From a virus: a stretch of 25,592 nucleotides of DNA. The stretch's first letter is position 1. The number at the start of each line of letters is the position of its first letter. The DNA lies in the IMG/VR virus record IMGVR_UViG_3300025655_000258, positions 1 to 25,592 of that record, one strand, 5' to 3'. Both the position numbers and the translations under genes were made by a program. Shown here piece by piece: positions 3,698 to 22,086 of the stretch. The notes below the pieces were generated by a model. The model ran no database searches and had not been told where the DNA came from. It worked only from the letters and a program-made list of their open reading frames with translations.

Positions 3698-3705
3698 CAA
3701 ATATA
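3698..3705 (-). promoter_or_regulatory. Bacteroidetes-type -7 box upstream of the capsid sub-operon
   Basis: On the minus strand the sequence reads TATATTTG, matching the Bacteroidetes sigma-ABfr -7 consensus TAnnTTTG. It sits in the short gap between the stop at 3711 and the ATG at 3676 and would drive the beta proteins, scaffold and capsid. No certain -33 TTTG was identified. Confidence 0.65.
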
Positions 3706-4497: not shown

Positions 4498-4793
4498 CCG
4501 CACTTACAATTCCACTTTCTCAGCGCCTTGTTGATTCGTGAATCAGGGTTGTTAGCAGTCTTTGCACTAGTGAGTCTTTTCTTCATGCCGCACATACGAG
4601 AACAGAAAGACTTACGTCTTGCAGCCCGCTTCCCTGATGGGTTTGATTCAGTGACAGCCATCTTAAGCTTACTGCCTGGATTGGCCCTCCTGTATGCGGC
4701 TACACCCTTAGCCGTCAAGCCACCTTCGCGAGACTTGTGAACGCCCATCTTCATTTTGGGCATTGTAGCTTTTCTCTTTTTTACCGTGGCCAT
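4494..4793 (-). CDS. Conserved basic phage protein, 99 aa (DUF6321-like)
   Basis: The sequence contains the ordered motifs HKSREGGLTAKGVAAYRR, NPGSKLKMAV, PSGKRAARRKSFCSRM, KKRLTSAKTANNPDSRIN and a final KALRKWNC. I recognise this as the small basic family usually called DUF6321, common in marine phages; the domain number is from memory. Its role is unknown, and Lys/Arg/Cys richness suggests nucleic-acid or capsid-interior binding. The ATG at 4793 is only 4 nt downstream of a TATATTTG box, so the transcript probably has no 5' leader. Confidence 0.8.
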   Translation of the reverse strand: MATVKKRKATMPKMKMGVHKSREGGLTAKGVAAYRRANPGSKLKMAVTESNPSGKRAARRKSFCSRMCGMKKRLTSAKTANNPDSRINKALRKWNCKCG

Positions 4794-14473: not shown

Positions 14474-14486
14474 CTTAATCGTATTG

Positions 14487-14560
14487 TACGCCTGCCAGGA
14501 CTCGAACCTGAAACCTGCGCATTAGAAGTGCGCTGCTCTATCCTGTTGAGCTACAGGCGC
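14487..14560 (-). tRNA. tRNA-Arg (anticodon UCU)
   Basis: The minus strand folds as a full cloverleaf: acceptor GCGCCTG with CAGGCGT (one G-U), D arm GCTC/GAGC, anticodon stem GCGCA/TGCGC closing the loop CTTCTAA with anticodon TCT, and T arm CAGG-type stem around TTCGAGT. The discriminator is A and CCA is not encoded. The anticodon reads AGA (and AGG), a codon used by the AT-rich late genes, so the tRNA probably supplements host decoding. Confidence 0.93.
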
Positions 14561-15535: not shown

Positions 15536-15762
15536 CGACTTCTTCTTTTTTTCGGCCTATTATTAGCCCTGTTTACTGACTCTGGCTGGGGTGTAGTCCT
15601 ATCAGAGGTGCCAACATGAGCATTGTCAAGGCCATCACCATTCCCGTAAACACCGAGTCTGCGAGCAATACGGTTAAGACAGGCCCTGTACTGCTTAGCC
15701 TTACCTCCCTTCCCGTACTTTTCATACTCTTTCTTATAGTTGCGTTTTTTGACATTGGCCAT
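15532..15762 (-). CDS. Small basic phage protein, 76 aa
   Basis: The core KEYEKYGKGGKAKQYRACLNRIARRLGVYGNGDGLDNAH matches a small-protein pattern found widely in phages: a basic helix, then GxYGNGDG(K/L)D.(S/A)H, and a basic tail. Tail residues (NRANNRPKKRRSR) are typical of nucleic-acid-binding or capsid-interior proteins. Its ATG is 4 nt from a TATATTTG box, which suggests a leaderless message. It overlaps the 255-aa gene by 4 nt. Function is unknown. Confidence 0.75.
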   Translation of the reverse strand: MANVKKRNYKKEYEKYGKGGKAKQYRACLNRIARRLGVYGNGDGLDNAHVGTSDRTTPQPESVNRANNRPKKRRSR

Positions 15763-15766
15763 AATG

Positions 15767-15774
15767 CAAATATA
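15767..15774 (-). promoter_or_regulatory. -7 promoter box with leaderless start
   Basis: Minus-strand TATATTTG followed by CATT and the ATG at 15762, identical in arrangement to the box at 4798-4805. It lies directly after the tRNA-like element. Confidence 0.65.
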
Positions 15775-15780
15775 ATTAAA

Positions 15781-16416: not shown

Positions 16417-16645
16417 TGTCTTTTAGGTCTTTAATCATTTGTTCAAGGCGCTGTCTTTCGACGAGAAGGTCTTTACAATCTGTCGCCGTTTGTTTGATGG
16501 ATTGTAGCTCTGCCTTTCTTGCGCTACCATTAATTTCTGGATCAACTGGTTTTTTTATTTCATCAATCATATTGTTGATTGCAATCTCCATGCTGTCCAT
16601 TAGCTTTTGAGCTGCCTCAATTGTTGTGAATTTCTTCTTCGACAT
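16355..16645 (-). CDS. Coiled-coil protein, 96 aa
   Basis: Nearly all helical: ATIEAAQKLMDSMEIAINNMIDEIKKP, then ELQSIKQTATDCKDLLVERQRLEQMIKDLKDNGEIEQA with heptad-like spacing. It is short, acidic-basic balanced and lies in the packaging-side part of the operon upstream of the terminase. Small terminase subunits have such helical oligomerisation domains, but no N-terminal HTH is visible here, so this is only one option. It overlaps the co-chaperonin gene by 29 nt. Confidence 0.62.
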   Translation of the reverse strand: MSKKKFTTIEAAQKLMDSMEIAINNMIDEIKKPVDPEINGSARKAELQSIKQTATDCKDLLVERQRLEQMIKDLKDNGEIEQAKDYSGGFAEKFSK

Positions 16646-17216
16646 ACATCAGGTCTATTACGCGAGTTCTGTAGTATTCTTCCCCGTCAATTTTGATGCG
16701 GTAGTCTCTATTTTCTTTAAACCCAACAACATCACCAACCTTAACTCCTAATTTATTAAGATCTTCAGACTCAAAGGCTACGACACCTTTTGTTGGGAGG
16801 GCATCTTTGAGAGAAACTACGTCAATAACGCTGTTTTTTGTGTCTTCTTTTTCTACTGGCAACAAGAGGCTCCATCCAGCCAATGGTGTTATTTTACCAT
16901 CTTTGTTTTTGTATGCAATGGCCTGATTGTTTGCTGCCTCTGATGGGTTGTAGTTTACAAAATAACTCTTGTCATTGCCAGTGAGTTTTTGACCTTCTTG
17001 CATAACCACAAGGTGATGAAAATACAGCGTGTCACCAACCTCAACATCTGTTTTATATTTTGCTGGTGTTGCAATAACTGGACCATCGGTAACTCTGTAT
17101 GCAAATTCTCCACCCTCAAAACGAGAGTCAATATATAGTTCCAATCCGCTGGCAGTGGAGATTGTATCGTTGATCGGCTTCTCAAGCTCAACGATAAACA
17201 TATTTAAGGATCTCAT
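16617..17216 (-). CDS. GroES-like co-chaperonin
   Basis: The 199-aa protein carries a Cpn10-type beta barrel: FIVELEKPINDTI at residues 7-19, EVGDTLYFHHLVVM around 59-72 (the VGDxVxF(H/K) strand), and a C-terminal repeat-like VGDVVGFKENRDYRIKIDGEEYYRTRVIDLMYVEEE. That final piece, in which the message 'K.DG.EYYR.R..D.M' closes the barrel, is typical of phage GroES homologues such as T4 gp31-like co-chaperonins. They cap host GroEL, enlarge its cage and help fold the capsid protein. It is about twice the length of bacterial GroES, so contains an insertion or an extra domain. The start overlaps the 49-aa gene as ATGA. Confidence 0.72.
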   Translation of the reverse strand: MRSLNMFIVELEKPINDTISTASGLELYIDSRFEGGEFAYRVTDGPVIATPAKYKTDVEVGDTLYFHHLVVMQEGQKLTGNDKSYFVNYNPSEAANNQAIAYKNKDGKITPLAGWSLLLPVEKEDTKNSVIDVVSLKDALPTKGVVAFESEDLNKLGVKVGDVVGFKENRDYRIKIDGEEYYRTRVIDLMYVEEEIHNN

Positions 17217-17364: not shown

Positions 17365-17604
17365 TTAAAAATTTAAATCAAATTCGATAATGCACGGCAT
17401 ATCGTCTACAACCTTCCACATTACGTTGCTACCATCTTCTTCCTGAAGGTATACAATGTATCTGTTTTTACCGTGTCTATAAAGAAATGCTTCATCAACA
17501 ACAATTGCGCTTACATTGCTGCTTCCAGCTCTCATGCCGACATAATACGCCATGGCGTCCTTGGGATCCCTCCCAATAATAATTTTTCTAATAACACCTT
17601 CCAT
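17365..17604 (-). CDS. Small phage protein, 79 aa
   Basis: Beta-rich 79-aa protein: VIRKIIIGRDPKDAMAYYVGM, then YRHGKNRYIVYLQEEDGSNVMWKVVDDMPCIIEFDLNF. The layout KI.IG.D..DAM.Y.VG ... Y.VY....G....WK......P..IE(F/Y)D.. resembles a small conserved marine-phage protein of unknown role. It begins in a leader directly after the 101-aa gene and is 2 nt from the next gene. The genes 17213-17910 form a set of small accessory products around the co-chaperonin. Confidence 0.68.
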   Translation of the reverse strand: MEGVIRKIIIGRDPKDAMAYYVGMRAGSSNVSAIVVDEAFLYRHGKNRYIVYLQEEDGSNVMWKVVDDMPCIIEFDLNF

Positions 17605-17910
17605 TTAATTCAAGCTTATGCCAAGTCCTTGGATCAGATCATCAATATCTAAATCGTCTTCCTTGTAAGATTCGTTTGCAAAGTTAAATAATTCATTTAA
17701 CTCTTCTCTGTTTCGCAAATTGTATCCCCATATAGCCTTAAGCTGCTGATTGTCTTCATCAATATCATCGATAAGGCCTATTATCATAAGGGACATCAGA
17801 TCATCTCTAACACCATATTCATCAATTAAGTCCTCAATTTTAAGTGCTATTTTTTGAATCTCAAACAGAAAACCATCTCTACTCATATCTTTGTATTTAT
17901 CTAAATCCAT
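17605..17910 (-). CDS. Small acidic protein, 101 aa
   Basis: I prefer ATG 17910 (MDLDKYKDMSRDGFLFEIQK), which lies about 60 nt after a minus-strand TATCTTTG box. A TTG 60 nt upstream at 17970 would extend the protein by 20 residues but would be one base from that box. The protein is acidic and helical, ending NFANESYKEDDLDIDDLIQGLGISLN. No family is recognised. Its 5' region overlaps and opposes the plus-strand winged-helix gene, so each gene's promoter lies inside or near the other's start. A regulatory antisense relation is possible. Confidence 0.6.
   Translation of the reverse strand: MDLDKYKDMSRDGFLFEIQKIALKIEDLIDEYGVRDDLMSLMIIGLIDDIDEDNQQLKAIWGYNLRNREELNELFNFANESYKEDDLDIDDLIQGLGISLN
17886..17893 (+). 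promoter_or_regulatory. -7 promoter box of the winged-helix gene
   Basis: Plus-strand TATCTTTG matches TAnnTTTG and lies 21 nt before ATG 17915. It is located inside the first codons of the opposing minus-strand gene. Confidence 0.55.
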
Positions 17911-17914
17911 TTTA

Positions 17915-18346
17915 ATGCCTAAAAGTGTGGTTTCTAAAAGAAAACTCTTTAGAGAGTTTTCGAAGCTCAATCAAAGATACGTAAAACGTAACTACCTAAA
18001 GCACCTTAGGAGAGAACTGCTTAAAACAAAAGATAGCCACTCTATCTTTCAAAAGGAAATAATGTTCATGCTGTGGGCGTACGATCTTGAATTTTTCACC
18101 CTTAAGTACGCATCTGATGACTTTGGTATAAGCAGCAAAAAAATTGGTGTGGAATATGTATACCCGTTAGTAAAGGAGGGGTTGATATACAAACACTTTG
18201 ATAAGCTTACCCCGTCGGATTCTAGAGAAGATCATCTCTTTAGAGATGAGACGAAATTTAACTACAGAGTAAGATATGCGCTAACACAGCGCGGTAGAAT
18301 TATAGTCCAGCAGATATACAGAAACCTAGAGGGAGAATCTATTTAA
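17915..18346 (+). CDS. Winged-helix regulator, 143 aa
   Basis: The only plus-strand gene in the left 22 kb. After a basic N-terminus (MPKSVVSKRKLFREFSKLNQRYVKRNY) comes a winged-helix pattern: FQKEIMFMLWAYDLEFFTLKYASDDFGISSKKIGVEYVYPLVKEGLIYKHFD, where the FGISSKKIG...YPLVKEGLI run fits recognition helix then wing. A YALTQRGRIIVQQIYRNLEGE tail is the MarR/PadR-type 'T..G....' ending. It probably binds DNA and controls phage genes, perhaps by acting on the opposing promoter. ATG 17915 is used; a TTG 24 nt upstream is in frame. It ends in a 4-bp overlap with the convergent endolysin. Confidence 0.75.
   Translation: MPKSVVSKRKLFREFSKLNQRYVKRNYLKHLRRELLKTKDSHSIFQKEIMFMLWAYDLEFFTLKYASDDFGISSKKIGVEYVYPLVKEGLIYKHFDKLTPSDSREDHLFRDETKFNYRVRYALTQRGRIIVQQIYRNLEGESI
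17972..17979 (-). promoter_or_regulatory. -7 promoter box for genes from 17910 leftwards
   Basis: Minus-strand TATCTTTG lies within the coding region of the opposing winged-helix gene. It would start a message with a 55-60 nt leader before ATG 17910, giving two interleaved divergent transcripts. Confidence 0.55.
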
Positions 18347-18822
18347 AGTCCTTTCCCGAAGATTGCTTCGTAATATACTTGGCCGTCATCATCTCTACAA
18401 GCCCTGAGACACCTTTTACGATTAACGCCATCGTAAACGTAAGAGACGTGAACCCAATCAGGATTGTCGTCATCACCAAACTCCCAAATGAGCTGATCAA
18501 ATTCCAGATTGTTCTTGATGTATTGGAATATCTGAGAATTTGTACAACCTCCGAATACGTCTGCGTCCAGATCAAGTGCTCTACCTTCCATGTGTTGGCT
18601 ACGAACCGAGCCTCTGACAGCAGCGTTGAGCTCAGGCGACCTATACCCGCTCGACACGTATATAGGACACTTGAAAGCGTCCCTAAGAGGTTGAAATACG
18701 TTGAGCGCAACTTGTCGAAGATTTTCCGTAGTCCAGTCATCGGGGGTGTTATCTATGCCTAAGCGCTTAGCTGTAATACTTTTAGTGACTTCCGATAAGG
18801 TTAAGTTCTTAGATAAATTCAT
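18343..18822 (-). CDS. M15-family peptidase endolysin
   Basis: The 159-aa protein has the full M15A/VanY-type zinc peptidase signature: SSGYRS at 57-62, SQHMEGRALDLDAD with zinc ligands His77 and Asp84, catalytic-type Glu in DQLIWEFG around 114, and the third zinc ligand His125 in DWVHVSYV. Such enzymes cut peptide cross-bridges in peptidoglycan (D-Ala or L-Ala-D-Glu type) and phages use them for lysis or, when virion-borne, for entry. No signal peptide or membrane segment is seen, so a holin or other export is needed. It is flanked by virion-type genes and overlaps the convergent winged-helix gene by 4 bp. Confidence 0.9.
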   Translation of the reverse strand: MNLSKNLTLSEVTKSITAKRLGIDNTPDDWTTENLRQVALNVFQPLRDAFKCPIYVSSGYRSPELNAAVRGSVRSQHMEGRALDLDADVFGGCTNSQIFQYIKNNLEFDQLIWEFGDDDNPDWVHVSYVYDGVNRKRCLRACRDDDGQVYYEAIFGKGL

Positions 18823-20187: not shown

Positions 20188-20195
20188 CAAAGATA
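20188..20195 (-). promoter_or_regulatory. -7 promoter box with leaderless start
   Basis: Minus-strand TATCTTTG fits TAnnTTTG and is followed by 4 nt (AGCC) before ATG 20183. Confidence 0.6.
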
Positions 20196-20202
20196 CTAAA
20201 TG

Positions 20203-22086
20203 TTATTTTACCACTGCGAAGCCTGGCCTCCTGCGCTTTACAACTCTACCACCATTAGAATGGGTCATAGACTGCGGGTAACCGCGCTCTGTATAGTATG
20301 CCTGCCTGTGTGATATGGCTCTCAGCTTTACGTGGCCACCCTCGATAGACTCTACTATATACTTTTGATCTGGGTGAAGCAATACCTCCATCTCTGATGG
20401 ATATATTTCCATGCTGCCTAGCTGCGAAGGGTTGGCTACAGCCGTTCCTTCTGGTATGACGATCTCTAACTTTAGCTGCTCACCACCCACACCAGGTGTT
20501 CGTCTAGAGGTTTGCCTTGGTAGCTTGGCATGGAGAGACGTAGATACTGGTCGCGAAGATCGTGGCGATACCGAACTCACATCTTTTAATTCTTTTTGAG
20601 AAAGTGTTTCTACGATATCACCTACCTGATATTTATCTGGTGACCTCACATCCACAACCTCTCCATTTCTTATTACTCTGGTTGGTGTCAATCTCTGTGA
20701 TTGATTTCTAAATACAGTAAATTCCTTTAATGCTGTTGGCCACTCATCCATGGTGACTCTAGAAGATACTTTTTCAATAGTTGGGCCAGTTTGCCCTTGA
20801 GAATGCTTTACAAGAATTCTACGGGCTCTAAGCGTTGGTTCGCCACCGATAAGATCGTCAAACGGCGAGGTACTGTAGCCACTACCTAGCGGTAGCCTGG
20901 TCATAGCCAACTCTGAGTTTATTTTACTCATGCCATCAGCGCCATACAAAATCTCATCATCAAATTCCTGCCCCAAAGTAGAAAGCCTTCTATAGAGATC
21001 GTCTTGATTTCGAGTGACATCCATAGTGCGTTTCCATACATCACTTTGATACTTTTCAGTCCCGTACAGCATATCACTACCTCCAACGGTGCCACCGTGA
21101 CCAGGAGGTGGGAGGTTGATTTTTCTGAGGTAGTCGTCAGCAGTACTATGCGGGACTTTATTTGGGTTGGGGTACTTCCTTGCTTCTTTACCAATGACTT
21201 CAAGGTCTGATGTTAGCCTTCTAAGCGCATTGATTTGATCGGGTGTTAGGTCTTCAGCATTTTTTTTGATCAAAGAACGAAGAGACTCTGTAACGCCTTC
21301 ATCCATACCCTCCATGGCATAGATGATATCTTTTTGAATTTCTTCAGGTATAGACCTAAACTCAGGTGAGTTTGCATACCCGCTAAGAAGTGATGTATGC
21401 TTTTTCTGAAGGTCAATCCACCGTGGCATCAGGGATGGGTTGAGGTCAGACCTCATAACTTTATTAGCCAACCACTCTGGAAGGTTCTCATCAAGAACCT
21501 TTTTGTAGTCGATTACATCGGTCTCGGCATTCGACCATCTATCAACAGCTCTCGGCAATGGAGTTACATACTGGTCAATCTTATCCATCCCGTACTTCAC
21601 CGCCTTGTTTATAGCTGGTATGGCGTTGGTAACAGCCTCGGCACCTAGGTACTTAAAGGCATCCTTACCAATGGTCAACAGCCTTGACGCAAGGTAGTCT
21701 TCTAAAGCTGCAGCGGGTGTCCCGAATCCAGCGGCAGTGCTAAAGGCCACGTTTGCTGGTTGCGATGGGTTGTATGCTTCCGTGGCATACTCTTGGGCCT
21801 CTTCTCTAGATAGCGGTCGGTCTAGGTTCTCAAGGTATTCTCGCCTCTCGTCACTCATAAAGCCAACCTTCGTAGGGGTGTACTTCTCTGGGGCAGCTGC
21901 CTGCCGAGACTGTAAAAGTGCTGCTTGATTGGCCTCTTCAGCGCTAACTCTTAAAAGCTCACCGTTAGGTCCCTCCTTCCAGTTTCCGCTAGCAAGCATC
22001 CTTGCTTTAACCTCAGGTGGCCAGTTTTGACCCCCGTTGTAGTACTTTCTTACCCTTTTTAGGGGTTTTTTTGATACCGCCCTCAT
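20203..22086 (-). CDS. Virion-linked ADP-ribosyltransferase-like protein, 627 aa
   Basis: The N-terminal half is helical (YNGGQNWPPEVKARM motif early, long linker to about residue 330). From about 430 the sequence shows the R-S-E signature of mono-ADP-ribosyltransferases: a first strand FTVFRNQS with Arg460, PVSTSL (STS motif, residues 515-517) and the ARTT loop with YPSEMEVLL, giving Glu565-x-Glu567, followed by HPDQKYIVESIEGG. In the family, Arg binds NAD, the STS strand lines the pocket and the second Glu is catalytic. Such enzymes attach ADP-ribose to host proteins or RNA. The C-terminus carries a basic NGGRVVKRRRP tail. The start is 5 nt from a TATATTTG box. Catalytic activity is inferred. 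Confidence 0.75.
   Translation of the reverse strand: MRAVSKKPLKRVRKYYNGGQNWPPEVKARMLASGNWKEGPNGELLRVSAEEANQAALLQSRQAAAPEKYTPTKVGFMSDERREYLENLDRPLSREEAQEYATEAYNPSQPANVAFSTAAGFGTPAAALEDYLASRLLTIGKDAFKYLGAEAVTNAIPAINKAVKYGMDKIDQYVTPLPRAVDRWSNAETDVIDYKKVLDENLPEWLANKVMRSDLNPSLMPRWIDLQKKHTSLLSGYANSPEFRSIPEEIQKDIIYAMEGMDEGVTESLRSLIKKNAEDLTPDQINALRRLTSDLEVIGKEARKYPNPNKVPHSTADDYLRKINLPPPGHGGTVGGSDMLYGTEKYQSDVWKRTMDVTRNQDDLYRRLSTLGQEFDDEILYGADGMSKINSELAMTRLPLGSGYSTSPFDDLIGGEPTLRARRILVKHSQGQTGPTIEKVSSRVTMDEWPTALKEFTVFRNQSQRLTPTRVIRNGEVVDVRSPDKYQVGDIVETLSQKELKDVSSVSPRSSRPVSTSLHAKLPRQTSRRTPGVGGEQLKLEIVIPEGTAVANPSQLGSMEIYPSEMEVLLHPDQKYIVESIEGGHVKLRAISHRQAYYTERGYPQSMTHSNGGRVVKRRRPGFAVVK

Follow-up and report, generated by a model that had tools for sequence, protein, structure and literature searches.

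We propose that a 25,592-nt stretch of an uncultured virus (IMG/VR record IMGVR_UViG_3300025655_000258, positions 1 to 25,592; hereafter the window) carries a phage regulatory junction, in which a MarR-like regulator gene and the genes opposing it would be placed under facing, interfering host-sigma promoters, with the regulator tipping the balance between them. We put the probability of this reading at roughly 0.6. Judged from codon usage across relatives, DNA-level selection acts on the opposing promoter box within the regulator codons. It is from sequence comparison of this kind that we infer promoter activity, interference, the binding site, and the sign and timing of control.

Relatives analyzed and probable host

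Relatives of the window protein were collected from viral contigs in two sets. The first set comprised 126 confirmed stretches, of which 80 were kept and 55 remained after near-duplicate removal. The second set was obtained by a profile search of viral contigs, in which at least 597 sequences were confirmed; the best 80 of these at least 597 were kept, so this set leans to window-like sequences, and 49 were used after leaving out 23 repeats of the first set, 7 near-duplicates, and L142 (same contig as L027, with an internal start). Together, the two sets gave 104 non-redundant relatives (55 + 49). These sequences are kin and not independent of one another, so the counts given below are not probabilities. 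The first set was sorted by regulator residues 19–24 into group A (n = 33), group B (n = 11), and group C (n = 11); because the groups are defined by these residues, the in-gene contrast between them is partly built in, whereas boxes in the gap before the gene are independent of the sorting.

With three different members as query, tblastn gave no match to the regulator in 50,697 phage records. Among prokaryote genome contigs, one partial match was found, in a Bacteroidetes MAG contig, which is consistent with the type of promoter box described below and with the terminase relatives found in Flavobacterium and Cellulophaga phages. The hosts of this uncultured virus group are probably Bacteroidetes bacteria.

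Locus organization

The regulator gene (17915–18346, plus strand; 143 aa, ATG at 17915, stop ending at 18346) lies alone between minus-strand genes. The initial annotation had described it as a lone plus-strand gene, and this was borne out: its coordinates were verified, and the opposite orientation was also found in relatives. In a simple ORF call on the 55 first-set sequences, the left neighbour was on the opposite strand in 52/53 called and the right neighbour in 52/52 called; the exception among the left neighbours (L029) has an opposing ORF in a separate check. The minus-strand run, put at 22 kb in the initial annotation, ends at about 22.1 kb, and from 22975 on the longest ORFs are on the plus strand.

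On the 5′ side of the regulator, all on the minus strand, stand an acidic opposing gene (17605–17886; 93 aa, or 101 aa if started at ATG 17910), a 79-aa gene next to it (17365–17604), and a co-chaperonin GroES-like gene (16617–17216; 199 aa; phrog_13932, E = 8.8e-45; Pfam Cpn10, E = 8.5e-07), followed further on by the terminase and portal genes. The opposing acidic protein has 23 acidic versus 8 basic residues, and the searches gave neither a family above cut-off nor a confident fold for it (pLDDT 64, best E 3.3). Its gene is conserved beside the regulator: an opposing ORF adjoins the regulator in 79/80 first-set loci, the remaining one (L054) being cut by the contig end, and in 50/50 second-set loci (49 without L142; best 80 of at least 597). 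At the place of the 79-aa gene, an ORF of 77–79 aa was present in 71/80 loci, and profile searches gave no family match for this gene. The Cpn10 domain lies within the C-terminal half of the GroES-like protein. On the other side of the regulator, the endolysin gene (peptidase M15; 18343–18822, minus strand) meets it tail to tail with a 4-nt overlap. Elsewhere on the minus strand of the window, a tRNA-Arg(TCT) gene (14486–14560) lies immediately upstream of the terminase gene, and a 627-aa protein (20203–22086) weakly resembles ADP-ribosyltransferases toward its C-terminus (PF03496, E = 3e-4, below cut-off).

Predicted fold of the regulator

The earlier assignment of the regulator as a winged-helix protein was supported by structure prediction and comparison, with MarR-type chains at the top. 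The AlphaFold2 model (55 sequences; mean pLDDT 75) contains helices at residues 46–55, 63–70, and 74–87, strands at 91–98 and 116–123, and a further helix at 125–140. A Foldseek search gave the MepR–DNA structure (4lll) as the best match (E = 3.9e-3, probability 1.00), with none under 0.001. Similarly, the best VIA-align match was TcaR (3kp7; Z 11.2, rmsd 3.3 over 98 residues), and the rows shown by VIA-align were transcription regulators, mostly titled or known as MarR-type. Pfam MarR models matched 0/55 members at E up to 1, a PadR Pfam match was found in 4 of the 55 (best E 0.0076), and phrog_17028 was matched by 7/55 (best E 9e-06). The window protein itself was unmatched by phrog_17028, and neither Pfam nor PHROGs gave it a name. 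We thus call the regulator MarR-like in its predicted winged-helix fold, not a member of the MarR sequence family. Between its two wing strands, about 17 residues form a conserved stretch.

No conserved operator or palindrome was found in the window's relatives, and the candidates tried were rejected. A perfect 9-bp inverted repeat at 17940–17961, whose arm length was reached by 0/200 shuffles of the window, had arms of at least 7 in only 14/104 relatives and was not conserved. TTACGTAA was found at 10 places in the relatives' gap versus 7 elsewhere and was dropped. ACGTANNTTTG was present in 11/12 long genomes at 13 places, 9 at the regulator and 4 elsewhere (a split reckoned from contig coordinates), versus 6 for the reversed control, and no regulon was deduced from it.

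Predicted promoter boxes at the junction

Both TAnnTTTG boxes named in the initial annotation were found in their places. The −7 box of the regulator, TATCTTTG, lies at 17886–17893 on the plus strand, and the same TATCTTTG lies at 17979–17972 on the minus strand, inside regulator codons 20–22, as the box of the opposing gene. Directly upstream of this minus box is a conserved TTTTACG (17980–17986, minus strand; regulator codons 22–24). TAnnTTTG is the consensus given for the Flavobacterium psychrophilum sigma-A box in PMC9723704, with a position of −12 to −5 relative to the start. This position yields predicted starts at 17898 and 17967, in agreement with those proposed earlier, and the two predicted transcripts would be antisense to each other over 17898–17967, which is 70 nt on recalculation and not the claimed 80 nt or so. 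The plus box had also been placed within the opposing gene, which is correct if translation of that gene begins at ATG 17910; with the start codon at 17886, the box may instead abut it. In 13/33 group A sequences, the ATG that corresponds to 17886 is the most upstream one, and in L041 the opposing gene requires an upstream ATG.

Both sites carry the box near −7 by which Bacteroidetes sigma-A promoters are recognized. The Bacteroidetes −33 element is TTTG placed 17–21 nt before the −7 box, and at this distance it was absent for both boxes (17886, plus; 17979, minus). The antisense leader, that is the RNA of the 5′ overlap, had no special fold (z = −0.28), and an Rfam scan gave tRNA as the sole match.

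In the window, TAnnTTTG was found 25 times against 22.3 ± 4.4 in shuffles, and 32/100 shuffles reached 25. Such counts are what would be expected if these were ordinary divergent genes with chance box matches, the overlap being forced by compact packing and nothing being regulatory, a reading that we consider highly improbable given the relatives described below. With box counts at chance, the window alone does not demonstrate promoters, and the comparison with relatives decides. This comparison supports the minus box strongly, and the plus box moderately, as putative promoters.

Conservation of the opposing box within the regulator codons

Across the 104 relatives (second set: best 80 of at least 597), the most synonymously frozen regulator codons were 20, 24, and 23 (ranks 1–3 of 119 columns), which spell the opposing box and the preceding TTTTACG. 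Q20 was encoded by CAA in 79/79 (rank 1), K24 by AAA in 79/85, and V23 by GTA in 74/83 (ranks 2 and 3); the five other Gln columns had CAA/CAG counts of 15/5, 16/8, 25/12, 65/39, and 21/83. In the first set only (55 sequences, 122 columns), a ranking by synonymous variation that ignores position in the gene placed Q20 1st, V23 2nd, K5 3rd, and K24 4th. Tree parsimony gave Q20 0 changes in 30 rows (rank 1), with K24 at rank 3 and V23 at rank 4. Additionally, Lys codons 3 and 5 (17921–17929) showed a strong AAA preference in relatives, perhaps as an A-rich translation-start context.

Arg21 was AGR in 79 sequences of the combined set and CGN in 2 (L051 and L059, both group B), versus 67/37 for Arg13. 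Where R21 was swapped (K in 5, S in 1; four of the six being close relatives), the box was retained in 6/6. Among the box codons, the last base of Arg21 alone varied freely (AGA 25, AGG 54), and this base is an "n" of TAnnTTTG. That the sole free synonymous base in the box falls on the consensus "n" argues against an alternative in which codons 19–24 are frozen as the binding site of the regulator itself (or of an activator), the likeness to a −7 box is secondary, and transcription of the opposing gene begins at promoters lying further upstream. We consider this alternative unlikely, although it would explain why TTTTACG, which is not part of the −7 box, shows nearly the same degree of constraint and is almost unique to its place: in 457 kb of first-set loci, TTTTAC-N1-4-TAnnTTTG had 25 occurrences within or close to the regulator (24 of them at the in-gene place) and one elsewhere. 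It would also fit the persistence of GTA at V23 in 9/11 group B sequences, which means that not all of the constraint is due to the box, and a cyanophage MarR-type protein that is described in PMC9692554 as binding downstream of the start site.

The exact minus box was present within the gene in 30/33 group A sequences, at nt 50–72 (TTTC in the other 3), and none of this group had a minus box in the 30 nt preceding the regulator gene. In an out-of-sample test, the exact in-gene minus box was found in 49/49 further sequences (best 80 of at least 597, L142 dropped), and the QRY sequences of the second set had CAA together with TAC in 43/43 (best 80 of at least 597). Taken with the top rank against other codons, the out-of-sample count speaks against chance box matches.

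Relocation of the boxes and exchange of the regulator

In group B, the exact minus box was found in the gap before the gene in 11/11 sequences and was absent at nt 50–72; the gap between the two genes is roughly 38 bp, and the two boxes face each other within it. In the same group, Q20 was replaced and R21 and K24 were variable. A shift of the box from gene to gap would be expected if the opposing gene had one promoter, and this combination of a relocated box and released codons is a second argument against a binding site at codons 19–24. Over 484 kb, the 55 first-set sequences contained 16 pairs of facing boxes at most 12 nt apart, and 11/16 were the group B junctions, a concentration that is hard to reconcile with chance matches. 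Extra minus-strand TAnnTTTG copies elsewhere between −60 and +110 were found in 3/11 group B and 2/33 group A sequences. Group C had near-consensus boxes only, with TTTC at the in-gene minus box in 10/11 and none in 1, and with TTTC in 5, TTTA in 5, and none in 1 at the plus box.

In the 45 nt preceding the regulator, an exact TAnnTTTG was present in 18/33 group A, 11/11 group B, and 0/11 group C sequences. The plus box was exact in 20/49 further sequences (best 80 of at least 597, L142 dropped), giving 49/104 in the combined set. Among the 55 first-set sequences, no other plus-strand TAnnTTTG was found 8–250 nt upstream of the regulator, save one in L013. In group A, the position of the plus box tracks the opposing ATG, so the start-codon context of the opposing gene may explain part of its conservation. 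By these counts, the regulator's own box is weaker and less certain than the opposing box.

The regulator also appears to have been exchanged between loci. L019 and L066 share 96% identity over the 320 nt upstream of the regulator and 63% in the regulator, which indicates that regulators were swapped beside the same opposing gene. Such a swap by recombination beside a similar opposing gene was observed for L019, L022, and L024 against L058, L063, and L066. The swapped-in regulators L058, L063, L064, and L066 belong to group C and have only TATATTTC at the in-gene place.

Other boxes in the window and the genes that the junction may feed

The window contains six copies of TATATTTG, at 3705, 4805, 8206, 12241, 15774, and 22099, all on the minus strand, and 6/6 lie closely upstream of minus-strand ORFs, the portal gene included, so that they provide a ready set of candidate promoters. 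Of the 127 copies in the first set (55 sequences), 69% lay at most 60 nt upstream of an ATG ORF, versus 4–13% for five control words; on this placement, these viruses seem to use host-type sigma-A boxes. No TATATTTG lies directly upstream of the terminase gene, the nearest minus-strand copy being that at 15774. Several genes further along the minus strand are preceded by boxes of their own, so the junction should act most directly on the 93-aa, 79-aa, and GroES-like genes. Its output may reach the GroES-like gene, perhaps with others beyond it, but as far as box positions indicate it is not the sole promoter of the co-chaperonin–terminase side. Switching that side between early and late expression, as the initial annotation suggested, would be a conjectural role.

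For four of the seven minus-strand boxes (the six TATATTTG copies and a TATCTTTG at 20195), transcription is predicted to begin at the ATG itself or a single base ahead of it (predicted starts at 4793, 15762, 20183, and 22086), so these mRNAs may be leaderless. Promoter-like sites in a sigma-70 scan were about as frequent as expected by chance (13 vs 10.4), and the scan was not used. A perfect TTGACA-16-TATAAT at 15749–15776 on the plus strand, located at a minus-strand gene start, is probably a chance occurrence.

The minus-strand boxes at 20195 and 22099, upstream of the junction, are also what one would look for if the locus were a noncontiguous operon or excludon, in which minus-strand read-through from the endolysin side would give a full-length antisense RNA and the local promoters would be minor. 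The layout matches the description in PMC7154746, the 4-nt overlap leaves no space for a terminator between regulator and endolysin, and a tail overlap of a few nucleotides recurs in several relatives. This explanation leaves the selection on codons 20–24 unexplained, however, and a terminator-like site on the minus strand inside the regulator (18249–18232) means that read-through may also end there, terminator-like sites in the window being at chance (4 vs 3.8). We regard it as quite improbable.

Distant relatives in other phages

In Cellulophaga phage phi13:2, gp081 was the only regulator-profile match of that genome (E = 0.002; hhalign E = 6e-05, probability 65), and it is oriented against the genes around it, next to the structural module. 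Matches to phrog_17028 were obtained for phi13:2 gp081 (5e-123), Panino CDS0105 (1.7e-13), and the "repressor protein" of MW202828 (5e-15), and each of the three is opposite in direction to its neighbours. The regulator profile found nothing in the whole MW202828 record, and hhalign for its repressor was weak (probability 8.5). In phi13:2 and MW202828 the boxes stand back to back, not facing, an arrangement which, in two cultured or complete distant relatives, would be in keeping with chance box matches; the phi13:2 boxes belong to the CT and TT variants, which were seldom seen ahead of ORFs in the first-set count. In MW202828 (L082, 3053–3100), an inverted repeat whose 9-nt arms match perfectly is overlapped by both of the divergent −7 boxes; 17/2000 shuffles reached this level, and the repeat is a likely candidate operator.

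Maribacter phage Panino (L170, 5631–5646) has facing boxes that, with no gap between them, form a perfect 16-bp palindrome, TATCTTTGCAAAGATA. The palindrome is the longest in 12.4 kb, contains the only facing box pair there, and sits just upstream of the two-gene run containing CDS0105; such a pair, like those of group B, argues against chance. The annotated starts of the flanking genes (5626, plus; 5669, minus) lie upstream of the predicted transcript starts and were therefore probably set too early. An integrase is annotated elsewhere in the Panino genome. As a sequence pattern, facing boxes extend beyond the window's relatives, to Panino, and the in-codon box is seen only in the window's relatives.

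Among tblastn matches in elemo records, the homologous stretch in elemo phage NC_055853 runs in the same direction as the terminase. NC_055852 gp48, picked by eye as an elemo homologue, had no PHROG match and was rejected, and an A3 profile match in an elemo phage, located within a 3703-aa frame, was put down to chance. In Tenacibaculum phage Gundel_1 (L165, 5151–5561), a single gene on the opposite strand, with a tail overlap of 4 nt, lies close to the structural genes; the regulator profile did not reach this gene, which is phrog_17252, of unknown function, and whose product we take by eye to be GNAT-like. The profile found no homologue in Cellulophaga phage phi38:1, for which infection transcriptomes reportedly exist. 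A literature search, with most subscription journals outside it, gave no publication describing a junction of this kind for phages of Flavobacterium or Cellulophaga.

Proposed mechanism

In the proposed junction, the regulator and the first opposing genes (93-aa, 79-aa, and GroES-like) would be read from two facing host-sigma promoters. In the window's group, the opposing promoter would lie at regulator codons 20–24, about 70 bp downstream of the regulator's start, and in the second group both −7 boxes lie within the intergenic gap of about 38 bp. A polymerase from one promoter would pass over or sit on the other, the two promoters would thereby disturb each other, and one direction would be favoured at a time. 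Judging from the palindromes at the junctions of Panino and MW202828, the regulator probably acts as a protein switch on top of this interference; it would most likely bind the junction as a dimer, repressing the opposing promoter, its own promoter, or both.

A further-reaching form of this proposal, which we offer tentatively and consider rather unlikely, is that apparently lytic marine phages time their late genes by a lysogeny-style facing-promoter toggle, with codons 19–24 serving both as the rival's promoter and as the binding site of the regulator. If this were true, the switch would be written in coding sequence and would travel with the regulator upon exchange by recombination. The junction would represent a control switch common to hundreds of uncultured viral contigs, and its six codons offer a target for a direct test. 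Laboratory entry points are Panino, with its facing boxes and palindrome, and the Cellulophaga phages phi13:2, phi18:3, phi19:3, and phi46:3, with the back-to-back arrangement seen in phi13:2.

Comparison with known systems

Many MarR regulators are divergent from their targets and autoregulated. The regulator described here resembles this family in its predicted winged-helix fold and in its divergence from a presumed target, but differs from it in the lack of a Pfam MarR match among the 55 members, in the lack of a conserved palindrome, and in the stretch of about 17 residues between the wing strands. With the phrog_17028 proteins of other Flavobacteriia phages it shares the orientation opposite to its neighbours and, in the case of Panino, the facing boxes; it differs from them in that the boxes of phi13:2 and MW202828 are back to back and in that the window protein has no phrog_17028 match.

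The regulator locus has the geometry of a noncontiguous operon, a single opposite gene inside a same-strand run, and its predicted overlapping 5′ ends correspond to one of the excludon layouts drawn in PMC7154746. The cyanophage P-SSP7 pMarR is likewise described as a phage-encoded MarR-type factor of a marine podovirus (PMC9692554), a likeness by description only; it differs in that it activates a host gene.

The closest parallel to the interference reading is coliphage 186, in which the facing promoters pR and pL interfere, with a 5.6-fold effect measured at pL (PMC6593788). As in phage 186, a regulator gene and opposing genes would be read from facing promoters with overlapping transcripts, here at the level of sequence. 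Phage 186 is temperate and uses CI and CII, whereas the present locus has a predicted MarR-like fold, a TAnnTTTG box, and one promoter placed within the regulator codons. The tyrosine integrase model PF00589 matched 0/12 long relatives (52–65 kb, contigs that may be incomplete), with controls at 14/14. On this analogy, the best reading of the junction is interference of the kind known from phage 186, in a variant that would have a MarR-like regulator.
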